39,799 nucleotides of DNA, taken from the NCBI GenBank assembly GCA_030680805.1, contig JAUXUK010000084.1:1-39799 (forward strand), read 5' to 3'. This document shows positions 172 to 33,811 of the stretch, one piece after another; position 1 is the stretch's first letter, and each line of letters begins with the position of its first letter. This DNA comes from Sulfuritalea sp. (GTDB lineage: Bacteria; Pseudomonadota; Gammaproteobacteria; Burkholderiales; Rhodocyclaceae). The notes under the pieces are model-generated. The model made no database searches, had not been told where the DNA came from, and saw nothing but the letters and a program-made list of their open reading frames with translations. Made by a program: the position numbers and the translations under genes.

Positions 172-192
172 CGCCGTACCGCCAGCGCCGAC
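172..192 (-). repeat. Dispersed 21-nt element, copy 1
   Basis: On the minus strand this reads GTCGGCGCTGGCG, GT, ACGGCG. It fills the gap between the truncated gene (stop at 134) and the sulfotransferase start at 200, ending 7 bp before the ATG. It matches five other copies in the window at all 19 fixed positions and shares its variable pair (GT) with the copy at 16492. Confidence 0.85.
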
Positions 193-199
193 TTTTTAA

Positions 200-1024
200 A
201 TGCAGCGTTTTCATTTCATTTCCGGATTGCCCCGTTCCGGCTCGACCCTGCTGTCGGCGATCCTGAGCCAGAACCCGCGCTTTCATGCCGGTGTCAGCAG
301 CCCGCTGGCCGCCTTCTTCTCTTCACTGGTGGCCCAGGTCAGCGTTGGCAGCGAATGGTCGGCGCGCGTGAATACGGCCCAGCGCCGCCGTCTGCTGCAT
401 GGCCTGTTCGAGTCCTACTACGCCGATCTGCCGCCCGAAAAACAGGTGGTGTTCGACACCAACCGGGTGTGGACGGCGCGCCTGCCGGCCTTGCTGGATC
501 TGTTTCCCCAGGCCCGGGTGATTGCTTGCGTGCGCAACGTCGGCTGGGTCATGGACAGCATCGAGCGCCTGTACCGCAAGAACCCGTACGAGAACACGGC
601 CTTGTTCAGCAACGATGCCGAGCGCAGCACGGTGTTTACACGCACCGAGACGCTGGCCCAGCGCAACCGGCTGGTGGGCCTGGCCTATTCGGGGTTCAAG
701 GAAGCCTTCTACAGCGAACAGGGCCGCGCCATGCTGGTGGTCGATTACGACCTGTTGGTGCAGCGGCCCGCCCACGTGATTCCGCTGATCTACCAGTTTC
801 TCGGCGAGGAAGCGTTTCCCCACGATTACGACAACCTGCAGTTCGACACACCCGACTACGATGAAGGCCTGGGCCTGGCCGGGCTGCACAAGGTGCGTCG
901 GAAAGTCGGCCCCGAGCCGCGCGAAACGATTCTGCCGCCGGACGTTTTCGAGCAGTATTCCAAGCTGTCCTTCTGGAACAACGCGGCCGGCAGTCGCTGC
1001 AACGTGCTTATGGTTCGCCCCTAG
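200..1024 (+). CDS. Sulfotransferase family protein (PAPS-dependent)
   Basis: This 274-residue protein probably transfers a sulfuryl group from PAPS to an unidentified acceptor. The N-terminus carries the 5'-phosphosulfate-binding loop (SGLPRSGSTLL, residues 8-18) typical of the Sulfotransfer_3-like families, followed by a region rich in aromatic and basic residues. A candidate 3'-phosphate-binding segment is CVRNVGWVMDS near residue 110. The start at 200 is chosen because the P-loop begins a few residues in, as is usual here. There is no strong Shine-Dalgarno; a copy of the 21-nt element sits just upstream. Its stop overlaps that of the convergent cysC by 4 bp, and cysC makes its donor. The acceptor (polysaccharide, lipid or protein) cannot be read from sequence. 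The family assignment is firm. Confidence 0.85.
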   Translation: MQRFHFISGLPRSGSTLLSAILSQNPRFHAGVSSPLAAFFSSLVAQVSVGSEWSARVNTAQRRRLLHGLFESYYADLPPEKQVVFDTNRVWTARLPALLDLFPQARVIACVRNVGWVMDSIERLYRKNPYENTALFSNDAERSTVFTRTETLAQRNRLVGLAYSGFKEAFYSEQGRAMLVVDYDLLVQRPAHVIPLIYQFLGEEAFPHDYDNLQFDTPDYDEGLGLAGLHKVRRKVGPEPRETILPPDVFEQYSKLSFWNNAAGSRCNVLMVRP

Positions 1025-1617
1025 CGGGGAATGTTGCCGCGGCCCTGCAGAAAGCCGACAAGCTGCGCTACGCAGTCGTCAATTCCCATTTCGTTCGCGG
1101 CGAGCACGACTTCAGCGTGCTCGGGCGCTTCGTAGGGCGAGTCGATACCGGTGAATAGCGGCACCTGCCCGGCCCGGGCGCGACGGTAGAGCCCCTTGGG
1201 GTCACGCTGTTCGCAGACTGCAAGCGGGGTATCGACGAAAACCTCGATGAACTCGCCGTGCTCGAACAGCTTGCGAACCGTGTTGCGCTCGGCGCGGAAC
1301 GGCGAGATCAGCGCCACCAGCACGATCAGTCCGGCATCGACGAACAGCCGGGCGAGTTCGCCGACGCGCCGGATGTGTTCCTGCCGGTCCGCATCCGAAT
1401 AACCGAGGTCGCGGCTCAATCCCAGGCGCACCGCGTCGCCGTCCAGCAGGTAGCAATGCATGCCGCGATCGAACAGCGTCGATTGCAGGCCGCTGGCGAT
1501 GGACGACTTGCCTGCCGCGCTCAGCCCCGTCAGCCAGACGACGCAGGGTTTTTGCCCGAGCGCCCGCGCCCGGTCGCTCTTGCTGATGTCGCGCAAATCG
1601 CTTTGAGTGGAAGGCAT
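1021..1617 (-). CDS. cysC: Adenylyl-sulfate (APS) kinase
   Basis: APS kinase phosphorylates adenylyl sulfate to PAPS, the donor used by the two sulfotransferases in this region. The 198-residue length is normal for a stand-alone CysC. A Walker A loop (GLSAAGKSS, residues 31-39) is followed by LLDGDAVR, the R-E-HIRRVGE block that binds APS, and ALISPFR, whose Ser105 is the family's phospho-serine position. The DPKGLYRRARAG segment matches the CysC lid. The start lies 6 bp after the stop of the upstream peroxidase-like gene, so the two form an operon. No sulfate adenylyltransferase (cysD/cysN or sat) is visible, so APS must come from elsewhere. With two sulfotransferases nearby the likely role is sulfation, though assimilation cannot be excluded. 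Confidence 0.95.
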   Translation of the reverse strand: MPSTQSDLRDISKSDRARALGQKPCVVWLTGLSAAGKSSIASGLQSTLFDRGMHCYLLDGDAVRLGLSRDLGYSDADRQEHIRRVGELARLFVDAGLIVLVALISPFRAERNTVRKLFEHGEFIEVFVDTPLAVCEQRDPKGLYRRARAGQVPLFTGIDSPYEAPEHAEVVLAANEMGIDDCVAQLVGFLQGRGNIPR

Positions 1618-1623
1618 GGCTTT

Positions 1624-2208
1624 CTACTTCTGCTTCGCCACCCGCCCCATCAGGTAGAACTCGTCGTTCGGCCGCATCCCGGTCATGTTCGCCATGCGGT
1701 TGGACAGGCCGAAAAACGCCGCTACCGCGCCGATGTCCCAGATGTCTTCGTCATTGAAGCCGTGTCCGTGCAGCGTGGCGAAATCGGCGTCACCGATCGC
1801 GCCGGAATCGAGCGCGACTTTCATGGCGAAATCCAGCATGGCTTTCTGGCGCGGCGTGATATCAGCCTTGCTGTGGTTGACGGCGACCTGATCGGCCACC
1901 AGCGGGTTCTTTGCACGAATGCGCAGGATGGCGCCGTGGGCGACCACGCAATACTGGCAGCCGTTGGCATTGGAGGTGGCGACGACGATCATTTCGCGCT
2001 CGGTCTTGGACAGGCCGCTGTCCTTTTCCATCAGCGCGTCGTGGAAGGCGAAGAAGGCGCGCCACTCGGCGGGACGATGCGCCAGCGCGAGAAACACGTT
2101 GGGGATGAAACCGGATTTCTCCTGCACTTCGAGGATGCGGGTGCGGATGTCGTCGGGCAGGTCTTCCAGTTTCGGGATCGGATAGCGGCTGATGGGTGGG
2201 GTGCTCAT
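1624..2208 (-). CDS. AhpD-like / carboxymuconolactone decarboxylase family peroxidase-related enzyme
   Basis: This 194-residue protein belongs to the peroxidase-related branch of the AhpD/CMD superfamily. The active-site pattern is a Glu (E70/E72 in SKTERE), then C84-x2-C87 (GCQYC) and H91. In AhpD the equivalent residues relay protons and reduce peroxides through the Cys pair. The frame stays open far upstream, but the start at 2208 is supported by a GAGG Shine-Dalgarno and by the family's usual N-terminus (YPIPKLEDLPDDI). It is the first gene of a tight pair with cysC and is divergent from the dienelactone hydrolase-like gene across 72 bp. The substrate is unknown. The link with sulfate activation may be only positional. 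Confidence 0.85.
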   Translation of the reverse strand: MSTPPISRYPIPKLEDLPDDIRTRILEVQEKSGFIPNVFLALAHRPAEWRAFFAFHDALMEKDSGLSKTEREMIVVATSNANGCQYCVVAHGAILRIRAKNPLVADQVAVNHSKADITPRQKAMLDFAMKVALDSGAIGDADFATLHGHGFNDEDIWDIGAVAAFFGLSNRMANMTGMRPNDEFYLMGRVAKQK

Positions 2209-2280
2209 GGTGTCCTCGTTGATATGCGGTGCGTGTCGGGGTATTTTACGGGTTCCCCGAACATGCAAGAGGAGATCCCG
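2209..2280. promoter_or_regulatory. Divergent promoter region between peroxidase-like gene and hydrolase
   Basis: Both flanking genes start from this 72-bp gap, so it must serve both directions. Shine-Dalgarno sequences are visible on both sides (GAGG before the minus-strand ATG, AGAGGAGA before the plus-strand ATG). I could not pick convincing -35/-10 pairs. Confidence 0.35.
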
Positions 2281-3180: not shown

Positions 3181-3223
3181 ACATGCCCGCCATGACTGCC
3201 ACTGCGGGCCGTAGCGCCGGCCG

Positions 3224-5429: not shown

Positions 5430-5505
5430 GACGAAGGCAACTTGATCGTGAGCATGCGCAGATTGGCGGATGTTACCGCGCCGCGCCGAAGAGGCGGCAG
5501 CGGCG

Positions 5506-6897: not shown

Positions 6898-6906
6898 GGC
6901 CGCATC

Positions 6907-8798: not shown

Positions 8799-8822
8799 GT
8801 AGCCGCGGGGCCGATCGCCAGG

Positions 8823-9494
8823 TCAGTTCGAGGTCGCCAGCCGCGCCAGCGCTGCACGCCCCGAAAGCAGATGCTCATGCATGCGCTGTCCCGCCAGGTC
8901 GGCATCTTTCAGGCGCAAGGCCTCGAGGATTTGGCGGTGCTCCGCCAGCGATTGCTTGAGGCGGCCTTCCAGCCGCAGCGAATCACGGCGGGTGAGTTTG
9001 ATGACTTTCCGCGCATCGTCGATCAGTTGCGCCAGATAGCGGTTGCCGGCGATTTCCTGCAAGGCAGTGTGGAAGCGCTGGTTGGCCTCGAAAAAGCGAT
9101 CGGCGTTGTTGGCGGCCGCGTGCTTTTCGAGGTCGTCGTGAATGGCGGCGAGTCGGGAAAACTCGGCGCTGGTGATACGGCGGGCGGCGTCTGCGGCGAC
9201 TTGGCCTTCGAGCAGCGCCATGACCGGGAAGACCTCGTCGATGTCCTGTTCCGACAACTGGGTCACATAGCAGCCGCGGCGCGGCTTGAGCACGACCAGG
9301 CCTTCGGCGGCGAGTACTTTGAGCGCTTCGCGCAGCGGTGTGCGGCTGATGCCGTACTCCAGAGCGAGTGCTTGCTCGTCGATCCAGCCGCCGGGCGGAA
9401 GCTCATGCGCGAAAATGCGGGTGCGCAAGCGCTCGGCCACCTGTTCGTACAAGGCGGGTGCGGTGAGAATGTGCGAAGATGGTCTTGCATTCAT
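8823..9494 (-). CDS. GntR family regulator (FadR/FCD subfamily), likely of propionyl-CoA genes
   Basis: This 223-residue regulator has an N-terminal winged helix (about 13-80, with YGISRTPLREALKVLAAEGLV as the recognition helix region) and an all-helical FCD ligand domain. The FCD metal-site residues are recognisable in FEANQRFHTALQEIAGN and the later AEHRQILEAL. It is divergent from scpA across 129 bp, the classic arrangement for a local regulator, so it probably controls scpA-meaB-pccB-pccA and itself in response to a propionate-pathway metabolite (inference). A 22-bp near-palindrome covers its own start codon. No Shine-Dalgarno precedes the ATG, and the best promoter would start the transcript only a few bases upstream, so the mRNA may be nearly leaderless. 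Confidence 0.88.
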   Translation of the reverse strand: MNARPSSHILTAPALYEQVAERLRTRIFAHELPPGGWIDEQALALEYGISRTPLREALKVLAAEGLVVLKPRRGCYVTQLSEQDIDEVFPVMALLEGQVAADAARRITSAEFSRLAAIHDDLEKHAAANNADRFFEANQRFHTALQEIAGNRYLAQLIDDARKVIKLTRRDSLRLEGRLKQSLAEHRQILEALRLKDADLAGQRMHEHLLSGRAALARLATSN

Positions 9495-14493: not shown

Positions 14494-16479
14494 ATGTTCA
14501 AGAAAATACTTATTGCAAATCGCGGAGAAATCGCCTGCCGCGTCATCAAGACCGCCCGCAAGATGGGCATTGCCACCGTCGCGGTGTATTCGGAAGCGGA
14601 CAAGGATGCGATGCATGTCGAGATGGCCGATGAGGCCGTCTGCATCGGCCCGCCGCCATCGAAGGAGTCCTACCTCTCGATCGACAAGATCATTGCGGCC
14701 TGCAAGGAGACCGGCGCCGAAGCCGTTCATCCGGGCTACGGCTTCCTTTCGGAGAACCCCGAGTTTTCGCGCCGGCTGGAAGAGAGCGGCATCATCTTCA
14801 TCGGGCCCAAGCACTACTCGATGGCCGCCATGGGCGACAAGATCGCTTCGAAGAAGCTGGCGCTGGAAGCGAAAGTCAACACCATCCCCGGCCACAACGC
14901 CGCCATCGACACACCCGAGCAGGCGGTGGAGATCGCCAAGGGCATCGGTTACCCGGTGATGATCAAGGCCTCCGCCGGCGGCGGCGGCAAGGGCCTGCGC
15001 GTGGCCTACAGCGACAAGGAAGCCCACGAAGGTTTTTCCGCCTGCAAGACCGAGGCGAAGAATGCCTTTGGCGACGATCGCATCTTCGTCGAGAAGTTTG
15101 TCGAAGAGCCGCGCCACATCGAGATCCAGCTGATCGGCGACGCCCACGGCAATACGATCTATCTGCAAGAGCGCGAATGCTCCTTGCAGCGCCGCCACCA
15201 GAAAGTCATCGAAGAGGCGCCGTCCTCTTTCATCGACCCGGTGACGCGCAAGGCCATGGGCGAGCAGGCCGTGGCGCTGGCGAAAGCGGTGAATTACGAG
15301 AGCGCGGGGACGGTGGAGTTCGTCGTCGGCAAGGACAAGAGCTTCTACTTCCTTGAAATGAATACGCGCCTGCAGGTCGAACACCCGGTGACCGAATTGA
15401 TCACCGGGGTGGATCTGGTGGAGTTGATGATCCGCGTGGCTGCCGGCGAGAAGCTGCCCTTCAAACAGGAGGATGTCAAACTCGACGGCTGGGCGATGGA
15501 ATGCCGCATCAATGCCGAAGATCCCTTCCGCGGCTTCCTACCCTCCACCGGTCGCCTGGTGAAGTACTTGCCGCCGCCGGAAGTGCATGGGGTTCGTGTC
15601 GATACGGGCGTGTATGAGGGCGGCGAAATTTCGATGTTCTACGATTCGATGATCGCCAAGCTGATCGTCCATGCCGCGACGCGCGACCAGGCCATCGCCC
15701 GCATGCGCGACGCACTCAACCAGTTCGTGATTCGCGGCGTGGCGTCGAATATCGCCTTTCAGGCGGCGCTGATGCAGAACCCGCGCTTCCTGTCCGGCGA
15801 CTTCAACACCGGCCTGATCGCCGAGCAGTACCCCAAGGGTTTCAATGCGGCGGATGTGCCGCACGCCGATCCGGTGATGCTGGTGGCCGTGGCCGCGGCA
15901 ATTCATCGCCAGTACCTGGCGCGCAATGCGACCATCACGGGCCAGATGCCGGGGCATGAATTCACCCCGGGCGAAAATTTCGTCGTGTTGCTCGCGGCTG
16001 GCCAGCATCAGGTCAGGGTGCTCGAAGCGGAAGCGGGTTGGGACGTCAGCTTCGACGGTGAAACCTTTGAACTGCGCTCGAGCTGGCAATTCGGCGACCC
16101 GCTGTATGTCGGCACCCTCAACGGCCAGCCGATCTGCATGCAGGTGGAGCGGCGCGGGCTGGTCTATCGGTTGTTCCACTGGGGCGTGCAGGCCGACATG
16201 CAGGTGATGTCGGCGCGTACTGCCGAGCTGAGGGCGCTGATGCCGGTCAAGGCCGCGCCGGACATGTCGAAGTTCCTGCTCTCGCCCATGCCCGGGTTAT
16301 TGACGCAGGTCGCCGTCGCTGTTGGCCAGGAGGTCAAGGCGGGTGAAATCCTGGCCAAGATTGAAGCCATGAAAATGGAGAACGTGCTGAAGGCAGAGCG
16401 TGACTGCGTGGTGGAGAGTTTGCTGGCCAAGCCGGGCGAAAGTCTGGCGGTCGATCAGGCCATCATCGCCTTCAAGTAG
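14494..16479 (+). CDS. pccA: Propionyl-CoA carboxylase, alpha (biotin carboxylase/carrier) subunit
   Basis: This 661-residue subunit carboxylates its own biotin using ATP and bicarbonate. In order it has the biotin carboxylase domain (FKKILIANRGEIACRVI at the start, ATP-grasp glycine loop ASAGGGGKG near 165, FLEMNTRLQVEHPVTE near 285), a BT linker domain (about 460-590) that contacts the beta subunit, and a C-terminal biotinyl domain with EAMKMEN, biotin-accepting Lys627. The BT domain separates it from stand-alone acetyl-CoA carboxylase AccC. GGAGAAG precedes the ATG. It is the last gene of the scpA-meaB-pccB-pccA unit. A 21-nt dispersed element follows 12 bp after its stop and no canonical terminator is visible. 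Confidence 0.96.
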   Translation: MFKKILIANRGEIACRVIKTARKMGIATVAVYSEADKDAMHVEMADEAVCIGPPPSKESYLSIDKIIAACKETGAEAVHPGYGFLSENPEFSRRLEESGIIFIGPKHYSMAAMGDKIASKKLALEAKVNTIPGHNAAIDTPEQAVEIAKGIGYPVMIKASAGGGGKGLRVAYSDKEAHEGFSACKTEAKNAFGDDRIFVEKFVEEPRHIEIQLIGDAHGNTIYLQERECSLQRRHQKVIEEAPSSFIDPVTRKAMGEQAVALAKAVNYESAGTVEFVVGKDKSFYFLEMNTRLQVEHPVTELITGVDLVELMIRVAAGEKLPFKQEDVKLDGWAMECRINAEDPFRGFLPSTGRLVKYLPPPEVHGVRVDTGVYEGGEISMFYDSMIAKLIVHAATRDQAIARMRDALNQFVIRGVASNIAFQAALMQNPRFLSGDFNTGLIAEQYPKGFNAADVPHADPVMLVAVAAAIHRQYLARNATITGQMPGHEFTPGENFVVLLAAGQHQVRVLEAEAGWDVSFDGETFELRSSWQFGDPLYVGTLNGQPICMQVERRGLVYRLFHWGVQADMQVMSARTAELRALMPVKAAPDMSKFLLSPMPGLLTQVAVAVGQEVKAGEILAKIEAMKMENVLKAERDCVVESLLAKPGESLAVDQAIIAFK

Positions 16480-16491: not shown

Positions 16492-16512
16492 GTCGGCGCT
16501 GGCGGTACGGCG
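16492..16512 (+). repeat. Dispersed 21-nt element, copy 2 (left border of porin gene)
   Basis: Reads GTCGGCGCTGGCG, GT, ACGGCG on the plus strand. It fills most of the 34-bp gap between the convergent pccA and porin stops, ending one base before the porin stop codon. With copy 3 it forms an inward-facing inverted pair around the porin gene. Confidence 0.85.
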
Positions 16513-16513: not shown

Positions 16514-17848
16514 TTAGAACGTGAGTTCGACGCGCGCACCGATCAGCGTTGCATTGCGCGCCGCCGATCCGCCGCCGGGATGGCGGACGTACTGCAGATT
16601 GGGTTGCAGCGCGAACCAGGGCGTGATCGCCGCGCGCCAGGTGATCTCGAAGGCCTCCTCGGCGCTTGCGGTGCCGGTGCCCGCCGCCTGTTGCGCGCTG
16701 CGCCACTTGGGCGCCAGGCGGTTGCGCGTCCATCCCAGCGCAAGACTGTCGTCAGTGCGGCCGGCGAACGGGCCGCGAATGCGCACACCGAGGTTCCACA
16801 TGCGATCGATGGCGGTCGCATGGCCGCTGCTGAAGGCGTAGCGGCCAAAAGCCGTGACGTCGCGGCCGGCCTCGCTGCCCAGGCTGAACAGGGTCCGTTC
16901 AGCCAGCAGGTAGCCGCCCTGCGAGCGGCGCTGGATCGGGTTGCCGTTGGCATCGACGTCAACTTGATCCTGAACCGGGTTGCCATAGCGCCAGAAGCCG
17001 ATGGCGTACTTGCTGATCCCGCCGTACTTTTCGTGGGCAGCGAGTTCAGGGCTCGGCCTTACCCGAGCCGGATCGACGGGCTCGAAGACGTGGCCTGTTT
17101 CCAGCGGCGTCCAGCCGATCTCACCGATGACAAATGCGCCGTCACCCTTGGCAAAGCGGATTGCCGTGGCCTTCGGTCGCGCCGGGTCGTTGGGAACGCC
17201 GTCCATCAGCGCGCCCATCGCGTAAAACTCGCGGTTCCCCGACAGCCACTTGGCGCGGATGCCGAAGGCGGCGTTGTTGAATACGGATGGCGCGTTGGTC
17301 AATGCGAGGTCAGCCGGTGTGCCATAGGCCGGATACAGGAGCGTCGCCGCCGAATCCATGGTGAAGAACTCGGAGTCGATCGGGTAGATGCCGGCGAGGA
17401 CCAGAAGGCGATCGTCGAGAAAACCCTTCTGCAGCCAGGCATGAAACAGGCGCGTGGTCGGCACCGGCACCTCGATGTTGCTGACGCCTGCCAGGCTGCC
17501 GGTGCGCCGGGCATTGATGCCGGCGCCGCCGTCCGTATCGGTGTTGATGTAGGCGATGGTACTGTTCCAGCCCAGCAGCTTTTCCAGGTCGGCACGCAGT
17601 TTCAATTCCAGATGGCTGACCGTTTGGCCGCCATCGCGCAGCCCGCCGCGATTGCGCAGGCTATCGAGCTTGAGCCCGGCTTCGAGCGCGATGCCTTGCC
17701 GCCACAAACTGCTGCGCGTGCCGCCCCAGTCACCGGTCAGGGTTGTCGCGGCATAGTCAGGGGCGCTTTCCTCTGCCGCCGCCGGCTGCACCAGAGCGGC
17801 GAGCAGTCCGATGCCCGCGGCGATCTGTTTTCGTGACAGCATTCGCAT
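16514..17848 (-). CDS. OprB-like carbohydrate-selective porin
   Basis: This 444-residue outer-membrane protein has a signal peptide at 1-25 (basic start, hydrophobic core, cleavage after QPAAA). The mature N-terminus GDWGGTRSSLWRQGI is characteristic of OprB-type porins. Alternating beta strands follow, and the chain ends in RVELTF, the terminal Phe signature recognised by the Bam machinery. The ATG at 17848 is chosen because it gives the signal peptide; no clear ribosome site is seen since the 21-nt element occupies that space. It starts 8 bp after the Old Yellow Enzyme stop on the same strand, so it is probably co-transcribed. The solute is not deducible. The gene is bracketed almost exactly by two inverted copies of the 21-nt element. 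Confidence 0.85.
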   Translation of the reverse strand: MRMLSRKQIAAGIGLLAALVQPAAAEESAPDYAATTLTGDWGGTRSSLWRQGIALEAGLKLDSLRNRGGLRDGGQTVSHLELKLRADLEKLLGWNSTIAYINTDTDGGAGINARRTGSLAGVSNIEVPVPTTRLFHAWLQKGFLDDRLLVLAGIYPIDSEFFTMDSAATLLYPAYGTPADLALTNAPSVFNNAAFGIRAKWLSGNREFYAMGALMDGVPNDPARPKATAIRFAKGDGAFVIGEIGWTPLETGHVFEPVDPARVRPSPELAAHEKYGGISKYAIGFWRYGNPVQDQVDVDANGNPIQRRSQGGYLLAERTLFSLGSEAGRDVTAFGRYAFSSGHATAIDRMWNLGVRIRGPFAGRTDDSLALGWTRNRLAPKWRSAQQAAGTGTASAEEAFEITWRAAITPWFALQPNLQYVRHPGGGSAARNATLIGARVELTF

Positions 17849-17851: not shown

Positions 17852-17872
17852 CGCCGTCACGCCAGCGCCGAC
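17852..17872 (-). repeat. Dispersed 21-nt element, copy 3 (right border of porin gene)
   Basis: On the minus strand it reads GTCGGCGCTGGCG, TG, ACGGCG. It contains the stop codon of the Old Yellow Enzyme gene (the TGA spans the variable bases) and ends 3 bp before the porin ATG. It therefore replaces the expected ribosome-binding site. Confidence 0.85.
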
Positions 17873-18966
17873 ACGTGTTCCAGTGTCGGATAGTCCGTAT
17901 AGCCCCGCTCGCCGCCGCCGTAGAAAGTGGCGGTGTCCCACTTGGCGAGCGGCGCACCGCGGCGCAGGCGCTCGACCAGGTCCGGGTTGGAGATGAAGGG
18001 CTTGCCGATGGCGATCAGGTCGGCATGGCCACGCGCCAGAATCGCTTCGCAGGCGGCCGCTGTCTTGAAGCCGCCACAGGCCACGATTCCTCCATGAAAG
18101 GCATCGCGCAGCGCCGGCATCATCGAATGCGTGGCATCGTGAATCCAGTCGACGGTCTGGCAGTAGATATGCAGAAAGCCTATGCCGCGCTGGTTCAGTT
18201 CGCGCGCCAGCCACGGATAGGTCTTCAGCGGCTCGGGGTCGGCGACCATGCCGTTGCCCAGGCCGTAGGGCGACTGGCGCACGGCGATGCGTTCCGGCCC
18301 GACTTCCGCCGCCACCGCGTCGACCACCTCCAGCAGCAGGCGGTAGCGATTGGCCAGCGTTCCGCCGTAGGCGTCGTTGCGGTTGTTCACCGCCGGACAG
18401 CGAAACTGATCGAGCAAGTAGCCGTTGGCGCCGTGAATCTCGACGCCATCAAAGCCGGCCTGCATGGCCAGTTTGGCGGCGTTGGCGAATTCGGCGACGA
18501 CTCCATGGATTTCCTGGAGGCTCAACGCCTCCGGCTGGCCGCAGTCGACGGACACGGGCCTGCCATCCGCTCCCGGGATCATGGTTTGCGTGGCCGCCGC
18601 CTTGATCGACGGCCCCGCCGGGGCGCTGCCATCGGCGTGGAGTGCGGCATGCGCGACGCGGCCGCAATGCCATATCTGGGCGAACATCGTGCCGCCTGCG
18701 GCGTGCACCGTATCGGTGACCTTCCTCCAGCCGGCCGCCTGATCTTCGTTCCACAGCGCCGGCGTGTTGAGATAGCCGCGCGCGCGATCGGAGACCGGCA
18801 CGCCTTCGGAAATGATCAGGCCCGCGCCGGCGCGCTGCCGGTAGTACTCCACGATCAGGTCGTTGGGCACGGCGTCGCGATGGTCGGCGCGGCAGCGGGT
18901 CATGGGCGCCATGGCGATGCGGTTGGCAAGCTGAAGGGCTGAATTGGAGTAGGGATCGAAGAGCAT
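17857..18966 (-). CDS. Old Yellow Enzyme family FMN oxidoreductase (NemA-like)
   Basis: This 369-residue protein is an NAD(P)H-dependent FMN flavoprotein of the OYE/NemA family, whose members reduce activated alkenes, N-ethylmaleimide, nitrate esters or quinones. Visible marks are MAPMTRCRAD (19-28), QIWHCGRVAH (97-106), the substrate-anchoring pair H178/N181 in HGANGYLLDQF with Y183 near, and the C-terminal GGFKT and IAIGKPFISNPDLVERLR phosphate-binding segments. The usual QLWHxGR motif has Cys101 in the variable place, which I note as atypical. Its end is formed by the 21-nt element, so its last residues (VSALA) are encoded by that repeat. The porin follows in the same direction. The physiological substrate is unknown. 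Confidence 0.88.
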   Translation of the reverse strand: MLFDPYSNSALQLANRIAMAPMTRCRADHRDAVPNDLIVEYYRQRAGAGLIISEGVPVSDRARGYLNTPALWNEDQAAGWRKVTDTVHAAGGTMFAQIWHCGRVAHAALHADGSAPAGPSIKAAATQTMIPGADGRPVSVDCGQPEALSLQEIHGVVAEFANAAKLAMQAGFDGVEIHGANGYLLDQFRCPAVNNRNDAYGGTLANRYRLLLEVVDAVAAEVGPERIAVRQSPYGLGNGMVADPEPLKTYPWLARELNQRGIGFLHIYCQTVDWIHDATHSMMPALRDAFHGGIVACGGFKTAAACEAILARGHADLIAIGKPFISNPDLVERLRRGAPLAKWDTATFYGGGERGYTDYPTLEHVSALA

Positions 18967-21450: not shown

Positions 21451-24400
21451 TCATTTCCCTTTGTCGATGCACTCGCGTATGCAAGCCAGCAGTTCCTCTT
21501 CGTCGTAGGGCTTGCCCAGGTAGTGATCGACGCCGATTTCCTTCGCATGCTGGCGGTGTTTGTCGGCGGTGCGTGAGGTGATCATGATGATCGGAATATG
21601 CCTCAGGCGCTTGTCGGCGCGGATATTGCGCGCCAGATCGAAGCCGTCCATGCGCGGCATTTCGATGTCCAGCAGCATGACATCGGGGATGACCTCGCCC
21701 AGTTGTTCCAGTGCATCCACGCCGTCCTTGGCTGTCAGCACGTGGTAACCGTGGCGGGCGAGCAGGCGCCCGGCGATCTTGCGTACGGTGAGCGAGTCGT
21801 CGACGACCATTACAGCAGCGGCCGTAGCGGCGGCAGCGGCTGCTGCAGACGCGATGATCTGGGTTTCGGTCGGAGCCGCCACTTCCGGCGGCGGGGCGCT
21901 GGCGCGTTCGCCGGCACGCGTCGCCAGTCCGACGGGGTTGAGAATGAGTGCCACCTCGCCGTTGCCCAGCACCGTGGCGCCTGCCAGACCGGGAACCCGT
22001 GCCAGTTGCGGTCCCACCGCCTTGACCACGACTTCCTGGTTGCCGGTCAGGCTGTCGACTTCCAGCGCGACGCGTTCAGTTCCGCCCTTGACCAGCAGGA
22101 TCCAGTGCCGCCGCGCCGGTGGCGGAGTCGCACCGCGTTCGCCCAACAGCACCGGAAGGTAGTGGTAGGGATAGCGATTTCCCAGCCACTCGGTACTGCC
22201 CGTGCTGCGCATCTGTGCGGCAGAATCGGGCTTGTGGGCCGTCGCCTGCTCGATCATCGACGACGGAATGGCATAGATCCGGTTGCCGGCCGTGACCAGC
22301 ACCGCCTGGGTTACGGCCAGCGTCAGCGGCAGGTAGATGCGGAAGGTGGAGCCCTGACCGGTGACGGTGGTGACTTCGATGCGGCCGCCGAGACTCGAGG
22401 TTTCGCTCTTCACCACGTCCATGCCAACGCCCCGCCCGGAGAGCGCCGTGAGTTCGGTGGCGGTGGAGAAACCGGGCTGGAAGATCATTTGCGTCAGGGT
22501 CGCTTCGTCGGTTTCCGCGTCCGCTGCAATCAGCCCGCTGTCGATGGCGCGCTTGCGAATGCGCTCGAAGTTGAGGCCGGCGCCATCGTCCGTGATGGAC
22601 ACCACGATTTCGTTGCCTTCTTGTGCCAGCGAGAGGGAAATCTGGCCAATGGGTTCCTTGCCTGCGCGCGTACGTGCGGCGCTTTCTTCCAGGCCGTGAG
22701 CGACGCTGTTGCGCAGCAGATGCTCCAGCGGGCCGGCCATTTTGTCCAGCACCGAGCGGTCAATTTCGGTCTGGCCGTGGCGGATGTCAAGGTTGGCGCG
22801 CTTTTCAGAATCCTTCGCCGCCTGGCGCACCACGCGATGCAGGCGCTCAGCCAGGCTTTCGAAGGGAACCATGCGCACGCCCATCATGCGCTGCGAGAGT
22901 TCGCGGGAGAGGCGTGCCTGCGCGGCTACGGCGGCATTGGCATGGTCGAGATTGCGCAGCAGGTTTTGCTGGACGGTGGCAACGTCGTTCACGCTCTCGG
23001 CCATCATCCGGGTCACTTCCTGGAATCGCGTGAAGCGGTCGAACTCGAGCGGATCGAATTCCTGCGAGCGTTCGCTTGCCAGGGTTTGCTGTGACTGCAT
23101 CTGCGACTCGGACTGGATTTCCACTTCGCGCAATTGCTTGCGCAGGCGAATCACGTTTTCCGTCAGTTCCAGCAGCGAGGCCTTCAGTGCCAGCATTTCG
23201 CCCTCGATGCGGCCGCGCGCGATGGCAACTTCACCGGCCTCGTTGACCAGTTGGTCGACCAGATCGGCGCGCACGCGCAGGTGCACCTGCGGGGCGGGAA
23301 TAAAGGCGGCAGCGCCCGGGTGAGCCGGGCCCGGGGCATGCACGGCCACCGCCGCTGCCTTGTGTTCGGGGTGCACTTCGGCCTTCGCCGATTCGACGAC
23401 GGCGACGGGCGCGGGATGTTCGGCTTCCTCTGTTTCCGGCAGGGCCGCGTCGGGATTGCGCAGATGCTCGATCAGCATCGCGGTGCGGTCATACGAGGTT
23501 TCCAGGCCGTCGATGGTTGCCGGCTGTACCGACTTCATGGCGGTCGCCTGTTCGATCCGGTCTTCCATGGAGTGCAACAGTTCGCCGCAGCCCATGGCGC
23601 CGGCCATCCGCGCGCTGCCTTTCAGCGTGTGCAGCGCGCGCTGGAGCGAGCGCGAGATCTCGACGTCAGTCGGGGCGGCACGCCAACTGCGCAGTCCCTC
23701 GCCGATTTCGCGCATCAGATCGACGCTCTCTTCGAGGAAGAGCGGCAATATCTGCTCGTCGATCTCGTCTTCAATCCGCGCTGCCCGACGCTCGGCTGCG
23801 GTCAAGGTGATTTCCGGCACATCCGATGCAAGGGGTTCTGCGACAGGCGGTTCGACCAGGGACTCGGCCGCGGGCTCGAACGATGTGATGGAGACCGGCG
23901 TCATCGCATTGAGCTCGGCGGCGAGAGCGGTTTCTTCGCCGGGCATGCGGCGCTCGGCAACGGCACCCAGCATCCCTTCGAGGGCGCCGGCGCAGCGGGC
24001 GAAAACAAAGCGCTGGGCGTCGCTCGGCGTCGCATCGACCAGCGACAAACGCACCAGCGCATCTTCCAGCGCCCGGGCCAGGCTCGAGATCGGCATCATG
24101 CCCGTGGCGGCGGAAATGCTCGCAGTCGTATGGGCGGCACGGATTACTTCATTGTCGGGCACTGCTTCCAGCCCAAGGTTGGCTTGCAGTGTGGCGATGT
24201 GTTCGCGAGTTTCGTCGAGATAGAGGTTGTAGAGCGTGGGCGCCACTTCCACGTCGCCGATGCGGACCGGTGGTGGTGATGGGAAGGAGACGACTTCGGC
24301 CGATGGCTGCTGTTCGCCCGCCTCTTCCGGGATCGCTTCCTCGGGAACGACTTCCTCGGGAATGACTTCTTCGGGAATGACTTCCTCGGGAACGACTTCC

Positions 24401-26862
24401 TCGGGAACGACTTCCTCGGGAACGACTTCCTCGGGAACGACTTCCTCGGGAACGACTTCCTCGGGAATGACTTCCTCGGGAATGACTTCCTCGGGAATGA
24501 CTTCTTCGGGAATGACTTCTTCGGGAATGACTTCTTCGGGAATGACTTCTTCGGAAGTCGGCGCTGGCGCTACGGCGATATCGGCCTCGGCATCTTCGGC
24601 GCCGCCCAGAATCTTGCAGCAGCGGAACAATTCAGCCGCATCGAAATGGGTGCTGCCGCCCGCTTCGAGTTGCACGACCCATTCCTTGAATATCCCGGCA
24701 GCCAGGTCGAGGGCGTCGATCAAGGCTTTTGTGGCGGGGCGCGCCTCGTGCAGCCAGCCGTTCATTACCTGTTCCACCGCCCAGGCGGCTTCGCCCAGAT
24801 CGGTCAGGCCCACCATGCGCCCGCTGCCCTTCAGGGTATGGAAGCTGCGGCGCAGCGTGACGAGCGAGCCCTGGTCGTTTGGCGTCGCATGCACCAGCGG
24901 CAGATGCTGGTTGATGGTTGCCAGCACTTCGTGGGCTTCTTCGAGGAATATGGAGAGCAGTTCGGCGTCGAGTTCTTCCTCGCTGGCGTCCACCAGTCGC
25001 GAGGCTTCGGCGGAGGGTGCCGGAGTTTCGATCGGTGTTGCCGGCGGCGGCGGAGGCTCGGGCGCGCTACTTGGCGCGACGTCGAGAGCCTCGACTTCGA
25101 AGTCCGGCAATGCTTCTTCAGGCGTCGCTGGCTCGGCAGCAAATTCTTCGGTCGGCGCCAAAGCCGCCGGCACGGGCGCCTCGACTTCCTCGGGGACGGC
25201 ATGCGCGGCGGGCGGCGGCTCAAGAATGGCGTCAATGTCGGCCGCGCCACCTTGCAGCTGCGTGACGAAAAAGCCCAGCGCCGAAAGCTTCTTCGCGACG
25301 TCTTCGAAATCGCCGGCTTGCGGTGTGAATCCGGGTTCGGCGAACTGCTCGATGGCCGTTGCGCATTCGCCGAGTACGGTGTTGGCACGGTCCTGGCCAA
25401 GTACCATCAGTGCGCCCTGGATCTGGCGAATCGGCTGCTTCAGCGCGGCCAGGGTGGCTTGGCGCGAGGTGTCGCGGAAGAAGGCGTCCAGCGTTTGTTC
25501 GATGGCGCCGAGGTTGGAACGGATTTCGCGCGCCACCGATTCCAGCAGCAAACGCTCCTGGGCGCGCCGGGACATGGCGTCGAGGTGCGGCAGTTCCAGC
25601 GTTCCGAGTTCTTCACCGCGACCCAGCGCGGCGAGGCGGTTGACGATGGTTTCCGCCGAGTGCGCGAAGTCGGCGTCGAGCGACTGGAAGTTTTCCAGGG
25701 CGGATTCGGCGAGAAGGAGTGCGGTAGCCATCTCCAGCGCCATGATCTCGTCGTGTCGCGCCGGATCGCGGCGCAACTGGTCTGTCTGCTCGAGAATGGC
25801 GGCAGTCAGCCGCATGTAGCCGGGCTGACCGGTGGCGGCGCCCTCTTCGGCAATCTTCGCCACGCGCTCGTGGAACGGCGGCAGTGCGGCGGCGGTACCG
25901 GCGCACAGGCGATTCCAGTCATCCTTGGCGGCGGCCAGCAATTCACGCAAACGGCGAATGTGTGGCAGCAGCCTTTCGGTTTCCGAAGGCGTTGCCGTGG
26001 GCACCATGCCGTCCAGGCGGTAGGCGGCACGCACGATGGCCAGCGCTTCGCCACCGGCCGTGGCGCAGGCCGCCTGGTAAAGCGCCTCGCGCAAGAGCGC
26101 CTCGTCTGCCTCGGCCTTGCCGTCGATGAGTTTCTTGATCTGCGCCCCCAGGCGCATGGCAAAACGCTTGGCTTCCGACAAATCGGCGAGTCCGTTTGCG
26201 GCGAGCGCATCGAGCACGCCCAGCGCGATCCACCAGTAGGCACGGGCAGCGGGAGTGCCGCGCGTCATTTCGATCATGGCCACCGAGACTTTCATCTCGG
26301 CGATGCCCTTGGGATCATTCTTGATCCACTTCAGCAGGCCGCGCTCAAAGCCCAGGCGCGCTGCCTTGAGGCGCGCCGCGAGGGCCTCCGGGGTCAGTGG
26401 CGAGGGTTCCTTTTCGCGTTTCGGCGGGCGCTGGGTCAGATCGGGGAAAAACAGTTCGGCCGGCCCCGGCGCCGGCAGACCGCGCGCCACAAGCATCGCG
26501 CGGTAGGGGAGAAACAGCCGCAGCGGCTGGTTCGGGTGGCCGGCCATCAGGTCGTCGAGATAGCCGCGCAACGCAGTAAAGCCGCCTTGCGCCGCCGCAA
26601 TTGCAGCGCCGACATCCTGGGTTGGGTCTTCGCCCAGCGTCGCCAGCAGCTGCTCGATTGCATCGGCGAATTCCGTAATGCCGTCGAGACCAACGATCGC
26701 CAGCGCGCCATGCGCCTGGTGCATGCTGGCGCGGGCCTTCTTCAGGTCATCTCCGGCGGCATCGGCCGCGCAGGCGGCGAGGCTCACCCCGGCTCGTTCC
26801 AGGGCAAGGTCGATTTCCCCCTTGACCCAGGACAGTGGTCCGATGTCGAGATCCATGCTCAT
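21451..26862 (-). CDS. chpA: ChpA/PilL-type hybrid chemotaxis histidine kinase
   Basis: This 1803-residue CheA-like kinase belongs to the type IV pilus chemosensory system, which controls twitching and surface responses. In order: an N-terminal Hpt-like module (H48/H51 in MHQAHGAL), degenerate helical modules, a true Hpt (HTLKGSG, H675), an acidic Pro-Glu linker of fifteen [10 protein letters not shown] units (770-844), a degenerate Hpt (HTTASIS), a second true Hpt (HTLKGSA, H1078), the CheA dimerisation and ATPase core ([28 protein letters not shown]), a CheW-like domain and a C-terminal receiver with D1732 (LLDIEMP). P. aeruginosa ChpA has more phosphotransfer modules, so this is a shorter relative. 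It lies 40 bp after pilJ with no pilK between. One 21-nt element lies inside, next to the linker. Confidence 0.94.
24331..24555 (-). repeat. Fifteen tandem 15-bp units in chpA
   Basis: Exactly 225 bp are built of a 15-bp unit (plus strand AATGACTTCTTCGGG and close variants with AACGACTTCCTCGGG), read on the minus strand as Glu-Glu-Val-Ile/Val-Pro. Central units carry C at two positions and outer units carry T, which suggests expansion by unit duplication. Gain or loss keeps the frame, so it would change linker length, not switch the gene off. Confidence 0.95.
24557..24577 (+). repeat. Dispersed 21-nt element, copy 4 (inside chpA)
   Basis: Reads GTCGGCGCTGGCG, CT, ACGGCG on the plus strand, opposite to chpA, where it encodes the Ala/Pro-rich AVAPAPT of the linker. 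It starts one base beyond the 15-bp tandem array. Confidence 0.85.
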
Positions 26863-28939: not shown

Positions 28940-28960
28940 GGGTAGTCCTTTCCGGAACGC

Positions 28961-29503
28961 TCAGAGAGCGATATCGAGGTAGTTGGGGTCGGCCAGCAGC
29001 GCCGGGATGCGCAACTGGGTCCAAATGACGTCTTGCGCGTCCGTATAGCGGCCGCCCAGCCAAGGCGCCGTGTCGCCAGCGCCGACTTTTGCCTCGGCTG
29101 CCGCATGCATCTGCAATTGCGGACGCAGCCCCAGTGCGCGACGCACCAGCAGGGCGCTGTTGATGCCATGTCGCGCACCGACCAGCAGCAGCCGCGATTG
29201 CGCGTTGATGGGTGTTGGCGCGCCACCGCGCCAGGCGGAAAAATCCACCACGCTGTAGAGCACGCCGCGAATGTTGGCGATGCCGGCGAACCACGGCTTG
29301 GTCAGCGGCGCAGGGGTAAGTTGCGGCAGGGGCGACACTTCGCCCGAGTCGGCCAGATCGATCAGCCAGTGGCTGCCACCGGGAAGGTCGTCGGCACCCG
29401 ATTCGATGCCAAGCAACGCCTGGGCGCCTTCGCCGCGTCGTGCGGACAACAGGCGCTCGGAGAGGCCTTGCTGGAATTCGCGCAGACTGATGCGCTTGGC
29501 CAT
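28961..29503 (-). CDS. pilI: PilI, CheW-like adaptor
   Basis: This 180-residue single CheW-domain protein couples PilJ to the ChpA kinase in the type IV pilus chemosensory array. The fold is seen from HWLIDLADSGEVSPLP through FAGIANIRGVLYSVVDFSAW to RLLLVGARHGINSALLVRRALG. A copy of the 21-nt element lies in the coding region and gives the segment KVGAGDTAP near residue 140, in a part likely to be a surface loop, so the protein may have gained these residues from the repeat. Gene order and size support the name. It is followed by pilJ after 21 bp and separated from pilH by a 128-bp gap holding a large palindrome. Confidence 0.92.
   Translation of the reverse strand: MAKRISLREFQQGLSERLLSARRGEGAQALLGIESGADDLPGGSHWLIDLADSGEVSPLPQLTPAPLTKPWFAGIANIRGVLYSVVDFSAWRGGAPTPINAQSRLLLVGARHGINSALLVRRALGLRPQLQMHAAAEAKVGAGDTAPWLGGRYTDAQDVIWTQLRIPALLADPNYLDIAL
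29066..29086 (-). repeat. Dispersed 21-nt element, copy 5 (inside pilI)
   Basis: On the minus strand it reads GTCGGCGCTGGCG, AC, ACGGCG in the same direction as pilI, encoding Val-Gly-Ala-Gly-Asp-Thr-Ala. The variable pair (AC) matches copy 6. Frame and strand differ from the chpA copy. Confidence 0.85.
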
Positions 29504-29515
29504 AGTTCAGGCCTT

Positions 29516-29555
29516 CCGCCGGGCCGCCCCAAGGGGGGCCTGCGCCCCCTTGGGG
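29516..29555. repeat. REP-like palindrome between pilI and pilH
   Basis: CCCCAAGGGGG (29527-29537) and CCCCCTTGGGG (29545-29555) form a perfect 11-bp stem with a 7-nt loop. The left flank (29516-29534) is the reverse complement of 11881-11899 upstream of meaB. Palindromes of this look are, to my knowledge, common between genes in betaproteobacteria. In the pil transcript it could weaken read-through or protect the upstream pilGH mRNA. Confidence 0.75.
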
Positions 29556-29631
29556 GGCAGCGAAGCAAAGCGAGCGTTGCATGCCCGCGAAGCGGAATTC
29601 CATGCACGCAAAGCGGTGGGGCCGTTCATTG

Positions 29632-29997: not shown

Positions 29998-30030
29998 GAT
30001 GGTCAGCTCGCAAAAAAGGGAACTACTCGG

Positions 30031-30584: not shown

Positions 30585-30767
30585 TTAGATTTTGACCATT
30601 TCGAAGTCTTCCTTGCGCGCACCACATTCCGGGCAGCTCCAGTTGGGGGGTATTTCGTTCCAGCGTGTTCCGGCGGGCAGACCCTCTTCCGGCAGCCCAG
30701 TTCTTTCGTCATAGATGAATCCGCAGGTCAGACACATCCATCTGGAGGTGGTCGGCTCGTGGTTCAT
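30585..30767 (-). CDS. rubA: Rubredoxin
   Basis: This 60-residue one-iron electron carrier has four Cys ligands in two knuckles: C12-x2-C15 (MCLTCGFIYDE) and C45-x2-C48 (SCPECGARK). The aromatic core residues and the G-x-P-x-G-T segment (GLPAGTRWNEIP) are typical. The N-terminus is a few residues longer than in clostridial rubredoxins. It donates electrons to oxygenases, peroxide-detoxifying or other redox partners; no partner is adjacent. It is divergent from thiD, and together with the thiD-thiE-hemL genes forms a neighbourhood familiar in Rhodocyclales and related betaproteobacteria (recalled, not searched). Confidence 0.95.
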   Translation of the reverse strand: MNHEPTTSRWMCLTCGFIYDERTGLPEEGLPAGTRWNEIPPNWSCPECGARKEDFEMVKI

Positions 30768-30821
30768 GGTGGGGCTGTCGGTCTGGTCCGCCGTGGCGGG
30801 CGCCGGGGGACGGCATCCCTT

Positions 30822-30849
30822 CAGATAGAATTGCGGAATATTAACTCAA
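30822..30849 (-). promoter_or_regulatory. Possible promoter of the rubredoxin gene
   Basis: On the minus strand TTGAGT (30849-30844) and TATCTG (30827-30822) are 16 bp apart in the only AT-rich part of the gap between rubredoxin and thiD. The -10 is poor in its last three bases, so confidence is low. No THI-box/TPP riboswitch was recognised in the other direction. Confidence 0.3.
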
Positions 30850-30890
30850 GCCGCTGACCGCTCGATAGCCCGGGATGGATCAGGACATTC

Positions 30891-31751: not shown

Positions 31752-31781
31752 TTTTCCGCGCCGTTTTACGGATGCTTCCAG

Positions 31782-32441
31782 ATGATTCTCCGGGGTCTTT
31801 GCGCTGTCACCGTCGATGACCCGCTGCTGCCGCGGCTGTCGGCGCTGGTAAAGGCGGCGCTTGATGGCGGCGCGCCCTTCGTCCAGTACCGCAACAAGAT
31901 GGCGTCCCGCCCCCTGCGCCGCGCGCAGGCCGCCGAGATGTTGCGAATATGCCGGGCCTCGGGCGCAAAGCTGATCATCAATGATGATGTCTGGCTGGCG
32001 GTGGAAATCGGGGCCGATGGTGCTCACCTCGGTCGTGACGATGCGCCGGGCGGCTCGCTGGCCGCCGCACGCGATGCTCTCGGGCCAAAGCGCATCCTCG
32101 GCGTTTCCTGCTACAACGAACTGGCTCGTGGCGAAGAGGCTGTAGCCGCGGGCGCGGACTATCTTGCCTTCGGCAGCATGTTTCCTTCCCGCACCAAACC
32201 CGCCGCGGTGCGCGCTCCACTGGAACTGCTGGGCGAAGCGCGGCGCCGCTTCGGCCTGCCGGTGGCCGCCATCGGCGGCATCACGCTCGACAATGCTCCC
32301 GAGGTGATTGCCGCCGGGGCGGACATGCTCGCCGTGGTCAGCGATCTGTTCGATGCAATGGACATCAAGGCGCGGGCCGAGGCCTATCAACAGTTTTTCA
32401 ATCAAGGAGCACAGCGCGATCATGGTCGGCAGGCTTCCTGA
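31782..32441 (+). CDS. thiE: Thiamine-phosphate synthase
   Basis: ThiE joins HMP diphosphate to the thiazole phosphate to make thiamine phosphate. The 219-residue TIM barrel has the pyrophosphate-binding QYRNK (35-39; more often QLRxK), NDD (67-69), HLGRDD (82-87; usually HLGQDD), the Ser/Cys-rich ILGVSCYN strand, FGSMFPSRTKP (equivalent of the FGPxxxTxTK loop) and AIGGITLDN. These changes are mild and the active site looks intact. The start lacks a strong ribosome site, so coupling to thiD translation is likely. The hemL gene follows 55 bp downstream. Confidence 0.94.
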   Translation: MILRGLCAVTVDDPLLPRLSALVKAALDGGAPFVQYRNKMASRPLRRAQAAEMLRICRASGAKLIINDDVWLAVEIGADGAHLGRDDAPGGSLAAARDALGPKRILGVSCYNELARGEEAVAAGADYLAFGSMFPSRTKPAAVRAPLELLGEARRRFGLPVAAIGGITLDNAPEVIAAGADMLAVVSDLFDAMDIKARAEAYQQFFNQGAQRDHGRQAS

Positions 32442-32496
32442 CCCACTCTGCGCCTGGCACGCCTTTCCGGATCAATCGGATCAATAGGACCCTTTC

Positions 32497-33774
32497 ATGA
32501 CTCGCAACGAAGAACTCTTCCTTCGCGCCCAGAAAACCATTCCTGGCGGCGTCAATTCCCCAGTGCGCGCCTTCCGTTCCGTCGGTGGCGCACCGCGCTT
32601 TTTTGCATCGGGCTCCGGCGCCCGCGTGCGGGACGCCGACGGCAAGGAATACATCGACTACGTCGGTTCCTGGGGTCCGCTGATCCTTGGCCACGCCGAC
32701 GCCGACACCGTGCGCGCGGTGCAGGAAGCCGCGGCGAAAGGACTTTCCTTTGGCGCGCCGACGGAAGGCGAGATCGAACTGGCCGAACTGCTGGTAAAGC
32801 GCGTGCCGAGCATGGACATGGTGCGTTTGGTTTCGTCAGGCACCGAGGCCACCATGAGCGCGATCCGCCTCGCCCGCGGCTTTACCGGGCGCGACATGAT
32901 CATCAAGTTCGAGGGCTGCTATCACGGTCATGGCGACAGCCTGCTGGTCAAGGCCGGCTCGGGCATGTTGACCTTCGGCAATCCATCGTCGGCGGGTGTA
33001 CCCGCCGATCTGGCGCGTCACACCCTGGTGCTCGACTACAACGATGAACAGGGTCTGCGCGAGGCCTTCATCAAGCATGTCAAGGAGATTGCCTGCATCA
33101 TCGTCGAACCGGTGGCCGGCAACATGAACCTGATCGCGCCGAAACCTGAATTCCTCGCCGCCATGCGCGAGATGTGCACGCAACATGGCGCGCTGCTGAT
33201 TTTCGACGAAGTGATGACCGGCTTTCGCGTCGGCCCCGGTTCGGCGCAGGGCTTGTACGGCATCACGCCGGACCTGTCGACCTTCGGCAAGGTGGTCGGC
33301 GGCGGCATGCCGCTGGGCGCCTTTGGCGGGCGCCGCGAGATCATGGAACAGATTGCACCGCTGGGGCCGGTGTATCAGGCCGGCACGCTCTCGGGCAATC
33401 CGCTATCGGTGGCGGCGGGGCTGGTGACGCTGAAGAAGATTGCCGCGCCGGGCTTTTACGAATCACTGACGGCGAAGACTCAGGCCTTGGTCGAGGGGCT
33501 GGCCGCCGTCGCGAAAAAGCGCGGCGTGGAGTTTTCCGCGCAGTCGGTAGGCGGCATGTTCGGCGTCTATTTCGCCGCGACGCCCCCGACTTCCTATGCC
33601 GAAGTGATGGCCTCCGACAAGGACGCCTTCAACCGCTTCTTCCACGCCATGCTGGATGCCGGTTTCTATCTCGCGCCCTCGGCCTTCGAGGCCGGCTTCG
33701 TCTCGGCTGCGCACAGCGATGCCGACATCGCCGCGACGATCGCCGCGGCCGATGCGATTTTTTCAGCCGGCTGA
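32497..33774 (+). CDS. hemL: Glutamate-1-semialdehyde 2,1-aminomutase
   Basis: HemL converts glutamate-1-semialdehyde to 5-aminolevulinate, the C5-route entry to haem and cobalamin, the latter needed by the mutase in this window. The 425-residue PLP enzyme begins [17 protein letters not shown] and shows [26 protein letters not shown], the cofactor Asp in [13 protein letters not shown] and the Schiff-base lysine K265 in [17 protein letters not shown], the same number as in E. coli. All expected blocks are present. It follows thiE in the same direction. Confidence 0.97.
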
Positions 33775-33790
33775 TTCAGGCCGCTGAAAA

Positions 33791-33811
33791 GTCGGCGCTG
33801 GCGACACGGCG
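33791..33811 (+). repeat. Dispersed 21-nt element, copy 6
   Basis: Reads GTCGGCGCTGGCG, AC, ACGGCG on the plus strand. It occupies the short gap between hemL (stop at 33774) and the SMR exporter (start at 33823), ending 11 bp before that ATG. Confidence 0.85.

Follow-up and report, generated by a model that had tools for sequence, protein, structure and literature searches.

The 39,799 nucleotides (nt) of contig JAUXUK010000084.1 from Sulfuritalea sp. (assembly GCA_030680805.1), referred to here as the window, carry six exact copies of a 21-nt word, GTCGGCGCTGGCGNNACGGCG, which is probably a new word of the uptake type, with a function that we infer from its behaviour across related genomes. 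The word forms part of a unit of 25–27 nt, is abundant on both strands of the chromosome with no replication polarity, is over-represented between genes, has replaced existing letters in five genes, and is retained at orthologous sites. It has also been switched in place to a second dialect in one clade, and is reduced or nearly lost in three genomes of a genus that carries competence genes. Together, the high copy number with no polarity, the excess between genes, the replacement, the retention, the clade dialects, and the poor relatives match the DNA uptake sequences (DUS) of the Neisseriaceae and the uptake signal sequences (USS) of the Pasteurellaceae (PMC3630211, PMC1939737, PMC1626085, PMC2397512), and the analysis of these features makes it likely that the word acts as a DNA uptake sequence, that is, as a self tag of the competence machinery. 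A first-pass annotation of the window had left three options, an uptake sequence, a repetitive extragenic palindromic (REP) family, or a conserved protein-binding site. The first is the best supported, the second is not supported, and a binding site with another function persists as a rival.

Extent, abundance, and placement of the word

The coordinates and strands of all six copies were recovered as first annotated (Table 1), with 19 of the 19 fixed bases in each copy and the same free pairs (GT, GT, TG, CT, AC, and AC), and no match was found in 100 dinucleotide shuffles of the window. The annotated flanks, which were said to extend often to AA before and AT after the word, hold in part, given that AA precedes four of the six copies, and AT follows only three. 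In 36 copies from the genome of the window (G000; 3.14 Mb, or 3,143,040 bases, 86% complete), A is found at the upstream positions -3, -2, -1, and 0 in 67, 83, 86, and 97% of the cases, A or G at position 14 in 89%, A at position 22 in 67%, and T at position 23 in 56%, while the flanks farther out than the A-run and the AT are unrelated between copies. As the upstream A-run and the downstream AT are kept, the true unit appears to span approximately 25–27 nt, and the word with its flanks can be written approximately as AAAAGTCGGCGCTGGCGRNACGGCGAT. The word was checked for palindromy, and none was found.

Exact copies number 181 in G000 (86 forward and 95 reverse) and 306, on both strands, in the complete genome G002, and the reversed word, used as a control, is absent from both. 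With up to two mismatches, the counts are 451 versus 2 in the control for G000, and 697 versus 3 for G002. A chance origin is thus rejected, with no shuffle matches and practically none for the reversed control against hundreds of copies in the genomes. These counts, proposed by the first-pass annotation as a check, lie far above the control in the window's own genome and in its relatives, although two of its expectations have to be revised. The density of one copy per 6–7 kb does not extend to the genome, which has approximately one exact copy per 17 kb (181 in 3,143,040 bases), so that copies are locally concentrated in the window, and the "several hundred copies" are reached only when up to two mismatches are allowed (451), and not by the exact copies (181).

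Finer counts were made in 60 pieces of 20 kb each, spaced evenly along G002 (1.2 Mb, 32% of the genome; the G002 sample), which hold 101 exact copies, and 92, 36, and 35 copies with one, two, and three mismatches, against 0, 0, 0, and 11 in the control. The sequence AGTCGGCGCTGG occurs 143 times in this sample, when an order-4 Markov model predicts 2.0, and the most enriched 12-mers seen at least 30 times belong to the word, which bears out the enrichment over a Markov expectation that had been suggested as a check. A second enriched motif was found in the same genome (sample L303–L362), represented by TCCGCAGATT and TTTCGCAGAT, with 34 and 31 copies, respectively, and approximately two expected for each; one palindromic arrangement of this motif was searched for, and was absent.

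All 31 genomes of the genus examined contain exact copies, ranging from 1, in G017, to 306. Outside the genus, six genomes representing other genera of the family were examined, three of which contain one copy each, and the 24 genomes taken from the order's other families contain none. In a scan of 249 genomes of the family, using a pattern beginning with AGTY, 59 had a match, and the control was zero throughout. High counts were restricted to the window's genus and the genera g32, g43, g62, g70, and g88, with 0–7 copies elsewhere in the family, and genus g43 switches on and off between genomes, from 0 to 202 copies. Ten genomes outside the family, among 300 of the order, carry 1–3 copies each. 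At least 118 stretches from named records contain the word, and their labels, read for 80 of the 118, are mostly Sulfuritalea, Rhodocyclaceae, or Rhodocyclales, with a few others, so that the genus is probably Sulfuritalea; no named locus had a match of at least 95% over 500 bp among the other host loci compared. The stretches listed include two from the isolate Sulfurisoma sediminicola BSN1. Sulfuritalea itself is placed in the Sterolibacteriaceae by NCBI.

The copies of the G002 sample are divided between the plus (54) and minus (47) strands, the halves of the chromosome around the origin (52) and the terminus (49), and the leading (52) and lagging (49) strands, as assigned by GC skew (P=0.84). 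The strand bias relative to replication, which the first-pass annotation had raised, was thus looked for and not found in this sample, and replication polarity was rejected. The copies per 20 kb are slightly more even than a Poisson distribution (variance/mean 0.63, lower-tail P=0.013), and no pair is less than 200 bp apart among the 101 copies; a few close pairs occur in G000 and G001. One piece (L346, G002 2709001–2729000) has five copies on the same strand within 20 kb.

A simple gene caller written for the analysis placed 63 of the 101 copies in genes, fewer than expected from random 21-mers, of which 84.4% fall in genes (P=1e-7). The 38 intergenic copies represent a three-fold enrichment in comparison with the 12.4% of random positions found between genes. 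The genic copies run along the gene (32) or against it (31) and use four of the six frames; neither the RRWR frame on the same strand nor one of the frames on the opposite strand was seen. A shared protein motif, which the first-pass annotation had named as one finding that would overturn its proposal, does not explain the copies, given the frames used, both orientations, the intergenic share (38/101), and the fact that the homologues of six genic copies are different enzymes.

The main rival to an uptake function is a site for an intracellular protein involved in the organisation, segregation, or repair of the chromosome, in which case the dialect described below would have followed a change in that protein. 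A long, asymmetric word with an A-run, its slightly even spacing, its retention at orthologous sites, and its concerted one-base change would all suit such a site. The G002 sample, however, reveals no origin–terminus or strand pattern, and 63 of its 101 copies lie in coding sequence, while the near-loss of the word in one genome, its reduction in two, and its on/off distribution in g43 would be odd for a maintenance function. On this balance, a chromosomal protein site appears unlikely.

Replacement, retention, and dialects

Six genic copies were chosen from the 63 for a gap test, in which the proteins were aligned with structurally characterised homologues across the peptide that the word encodes. 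The HoxF-like gene is gapless in comparison with 7t2r_B, with two 2-residue gaps in comparison with 5xf9_A, and the acyl-CoA dehydrogenase-like gene is gapless through the word peptide. The NAD(P)H-hydrate repair enzyme-like gene has a gap of one residue or none, the CobT-like gene has a one-residue gap (KVGAGGTAN here, versus KVRPGTAN in the homologues), and the acetolactate synthase-like gene has gaps of 5 or 2 residues. In the sixth gene, the word lies outside the aligned region, which makes it uninformative. An insertion predicts a gap of 7–9 residues, and as the gaps in the five informative genes are of 0–5 residues, with none of 7–9, existing letters were replaced here, rather than new ones inserted.

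At the level of the DNA, distinct orthologous sites were counted, with 45 bp inspected on each side. The word is exact at 14 of 23 such sites in G002, where the flanks of the exact copies are 56–85% identical, and has one mismatch at three and two mismatches at one; in three of the five other sites, the alignment contains no gap, but the letters are unlike. Of 245 ortholog pairs, 100 have a gap within the 21 nt, and many of these derive from one intergenic site of variable spacing.

The first-pass annotation had proposed a search for a clean insertion boundary at orthologous loci; no word-sized gap was found in the five genes, and two DNA sites are fully gapped. Spread by a transposase, a very short repeat of a mobile or REP-like kind would account for these two sites (L465 in G027, and the 29066 site of the window in G024, where the gap exceeds the length of the word), which could reflect either deletion or insertion, as well as for the strong consensus within unrelated flanks and the restriction to clades. 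The lack of a palindrome, the five genes with no gap of 7–9 residues, the three gapless sites among the five wordless ones in G002, and a dialect change that occurred in place at seven of eight sites all speak against such a repeat. A mobile element is thus not supported, and is largely refuted, with the two gapped sites preventing a clean sweep, and its probability is considered minimal.

The dialect in question has a T at base 3 of the word. Counted using a pattern with a leading A, this form is found in 192, 224, and 216 copies in G001, G027, and G016, respectively, and in no more than three copies in each of the 28 other genomes of the genus, while the C form persists in these three genomes, with 25, 24, and 32 copies. 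The three form a single clade (support 100/100) in a gene tree based on up to 2.8 kb. In the sample of G027, 8 of 14 distinct orthologous sites keep the word (up to two mismatches), and seven of these eight read T where the compared genome reads C, which indicates, within the limits of eight sites, that the switch occurred in place.

Concerted replacement in place and near-copies above the control would also be expected of a recombination signal, such as a Chi-like sequence or some other hotspot, spread by gene conversion with no uptake involved. Chi-type words are far shorter than 25–27 nt, and this alternative is opposed by the lack of bias toward either replication strand and by the on/off distribution between related genomes, so that it is regarded as very unlikely.

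Three genomes, G017, G025 (rated 10% contaminated), and G022, are poor in the word, with 1, 40, and 26 exact copies, respectively. None of their distinct orthologous sites is exact (0/3, 0/6, and 0/2, with overlapping loci counted once), and decayed copies are found there instead. A hidden dialect was rejected, given that no variant of the word is enriched in samples of 96–125 kb from these genomes; G022 is still enriched in the word itself (AGTCGGCGCTG, 6 versus 0.33 expected). Words unrelated to it, such as TATCCCAGTGA, are also enriched in G022. In the drawn tree, the three genomes occupy separate places among the word-rich genomes, with middling support for the forks of G022 and G025 (94/95 and 94/90) and an unresolved fork for G017. 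In the group statistics of the tree, the T genomes are the only group against which the poor genomes are compared, which means that the case for separate losses is drawn from the tree itself, and separate reduction or loss of the word in each genome is the simplest reading.

Competence genes and phage-like contigs

Matches above the cut-off were found for ComEC in 29 of the 31 genomes of the genus, and for DprA in 28; ComEC is represented in G022 only by a fragment at a contig edge, and DprA in the word-rich G014 only by a match below the cut-off. The DUS of the Neisseriaceae is read by the minor pilin ComP, and a minor pilin of G002, encoded beside a GspH/FimT-type pilin, matches the Pfam family ComP_DUS (PF16732) with 43.9 bits (cut-off 27.3). 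This family was found in 30 of the 31 genomes of the genus and in none of 14 control genomes. The pilin is a candidate receptor and no more, since it is also present in word-poor genomes. The member from G017 lacks the cysteine before the conserved tryptophan, which 22 of the 30 aligned members have, although the same residue is also absent from the members of several word-rich genomes, according to an inspection of the alignment by eye. Type IV pilins of only about 60 amino acids occur in all six genomes inspected (L427, L433, L439, L445, L452, and L458), similar to the short PilA of Geobacter.

In the mechanism proposed for an uptake sequence, a surface receptor of the type IV pilus or competence machinery, most plausibly a minor pilin, would read the word on free double-stranded DNA, and DNA tagged in this way would be taken up preferentially, and then recombined into the chromosome. 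Near-matches at tolerant places would be converted into the exact word, and held there, because the tagged alleles would be taken up more often, while a change in the specificity of the receptor would rewrite the word in place throughout the genome, giving rise to a dialect. Uptake as the process, the minor pilin as the receptor, and recombination of the incoming DNA as the drive are what we infer, and no process known to the authors rewrites some 200 dispersed copies as simply as biased uptake and recombination.

Viral contigs from IMG/VR carry the exact word as well, in no fewer than 120 stretches (L153–L272); the reversed word was found in one, and the T form preceded by AA in none. Of these 120 stretches, 119 are less than 10% similar to the host DNA compared, and 9 of 10 proteins tested, from eight stretches, match phage families, including portal, terminase, and primase. 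Copies with one, two, and three mismatches number 17, 16, and 15 (0, 0, and 2 in the control), and a second exact copy is present in at least nine stretches. As the near-copies outnumber the second exact copies, this is consistent with entry from the host into the phage, followed by decay. One cluster of 19 homologous sites was noted among the stretches. A tail, CTTTTGNCTGCYAACG, is present in 17 of the 120, often shortly downstream of the word, and is possibly a phage-specific extension.

A self mark of a defence system, by which DNA that bears the word is spared, would explain the carriage by phages, that is, the 120 or more viral stretches against one for the reversed word, and the phage affiliation of 9 of the 10 proteins. 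The near-copies (17, 16, and 15), however, look like decaying acquisitions, and an accumulation of uptake words is reported for the prophages of the Pasteurellaceae, too, in the available text of PMC7371117, so that a defence mark is most improbable.

A number of observations weigh against an uptake sequence. One is the carriage of the word by phage-like contigs, while ComEC, DprA, and ComP-family pilins also occur in the poor genomes G017 and G025, DprA matches in G005 (99% complete, 291 copies) are all below the cut-off, and G001, a T-dialect genome that is 83% complete, lacks any match at all. Among the extracted pilins, which excluded four PF07963 matches on contig C42 of G011 and very short pilins, no orthologue was present in all of G002, G008, G018, and G011, and absent from both G017 and G025. 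The 40 and 26 exact copies retained by G025 and G022 and the two fully gapped orthologous sites point in the same direction, as do a density several-fold below that of Neisseria and the lack of a significant enrichment in shared DNA, which holds 19 of the 101 copies, against 268 of 2000 random positions (13.4%; P=0.11). In addition, very even spacing of uptake words is doubted in the portion of PMC1939737 consulted, and that of PMC2397512 attributes the origin of many new DUS to recombination, instead of point mutation.

Window copies and known systems

The copies of the window and the genes around them are listed in Table 1. The start of the sulfotransferase-family open reading frame (ORF) is uncertain, with the simple gene caller beginning it at 329, and the imperfect copy is probably a decayed word. 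The aligned orthologues of the 29066 site are variable there; the peptide encoded resembles a PfkB-type motif, but most copies read otherwise or are intergenic. The 33791 copy is kept within about three mismatches in 20 of 26 aligned orthologues, counted by eye, and base 3 of this site is T in all three T-dialect genomes. In the orthologue of G018 (L292), 24 extra bases split the word. A tandem 15-nt repeat of the GGGAATGACTTCCTC type (approximately 24457–24556) adjoins the copy in the CheA-like gene, and a GC-rich, partly palindromic repeat at 29507–29621 has matches of 58–115 bp in at least 23 of the 31 genomes of the genus. No Rfam match was found in the window.

Table 1. Copies of the word in the 39,799-nt window, and the genes that flank or contain them.
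Feature	Coordinates	Strand	Remarks
Exact copy, free pair GT	172..192	-	AAAAA precedes; just upstream of sulfotransferase-family ORF (200-1024, +)
Imperfect copy, two mismatches	9162..9182	+	A-run kept; seventh copy in the window
Propionyl-CoA carboxylase-type biotin carboxylase gene	14494-16479	+	Flanks the 16492 copy
Exact copy, free pair GT	16492..16512	+	Gap between convergent gene ends
OprB porin gene	16514-17842	-	Start uncertain; other flank of the 16492 copy
Exact copy, free pair TG	17852..17872	-	No A-run; overlaps final codons and TGA stop
NADH:flavin oxidoreductase gene	17857-18966	-	3' end covered by the 17852 copy
Exact copy, free pair CT	24557..24577	+	Within CheA-like hybrid kinase gene (21451-26862, -); reads IAVAPAPT
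Exact copy, free pair AC	29066..29086	-	Within CheW-domain gene (28961-29503, -); reads KVGAGDTA
Class-III aminotransferase gene	32497-33774	+	Upstream of the 33791 copy
Exact copy, free pair AC	33791..33811	+	Short intergenic gap
Small multidrug resistance-family gene	33823-34161	+	Downstream of the 33791 copy

The word shares with the DUS of the Neisseriaceae its dispersal as an exact word on both strands, in genic and intergenic positions, its clade-following dialects, in which one-base differences are possible and some relatives lack the word, and the presence of a ComP_DUS-family pilin. It is, however, a different word of approximately double the length, which includes a free pair and an A-run, has several-fold fewer copies, rarely found in close pairs, and belongs to another bacterial family. 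Genomes with DUS or USS contain roughly a thousand copies or more, which places the 181 and 306 copies of this word at the low end. The canonical Neisseria 10-mer, given as approximately 1900 per genome in the part of PMC3630211 consulted, is not found within the word, on either strand.

Like the USS of the Pasteurellaceae, the word is a long, discontinuous motif with an AT-rich part, and 62% of its copies are genic in G002, in comparison with the 65% given for Haemophilus influenzae in the available portion of PMC1939737, where the genic share of N. gonorrhoeae is 35%. In the accessible text of PMC1626085, the USS copies are described as not being insertions. The word itself is different, however, with the AT-rich part mainly upstream, rather than downstream, a lower density, and an unrelated lineage.

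The REP sequences and the bacterial interspersed mosaic elements (BIME) are also short, dispersed, and clade-limited. Their units are palindromic, whereas this word is not, nor was it inserted in the genes tested, and its dialect was switched in place. Chi, KOPS, and matS are short chromosomal signals in many copies, and this word differs from them in its lack of strand or domain bias, its on/off distribution among relatives, and its length of 25–27 nt.

No uptake word for Sulfuritalea or the Rhodocyclaceae was found in the open-access papers searched, which also gave no hit for the 13-nt core. The introduction of a 2025 paper, in the text available (PMC12616744), gives only two families with uptake words, and uptake in Verminephrobacter eiseniae is described as perhaps limited by sequence specificity, with no word named in the portion of PMC4212676 consulted.

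Taken together, the analysis suggests, without proving, that a third lineage may be able to recognise the free DNA of its own kind. A broader scenario, decidedly unlikely as a whole, is that of a third, independently evolved uptake code in the family of Sulfuritalea, with dialects and separate losses, in which phage DNA bearing the word may re-enter the cells through competence. If true, the existence of a third word, unrelated to the other two, in bacteria from the environment would mean that such codes evolve repeatedly. The two dialects and the word-poor genomes among the 31, together with the word-bearing phage contigs, would represent a natural experiment, in which the receptor may be sought through co-variation, and molecular drive may be weighed against selection.

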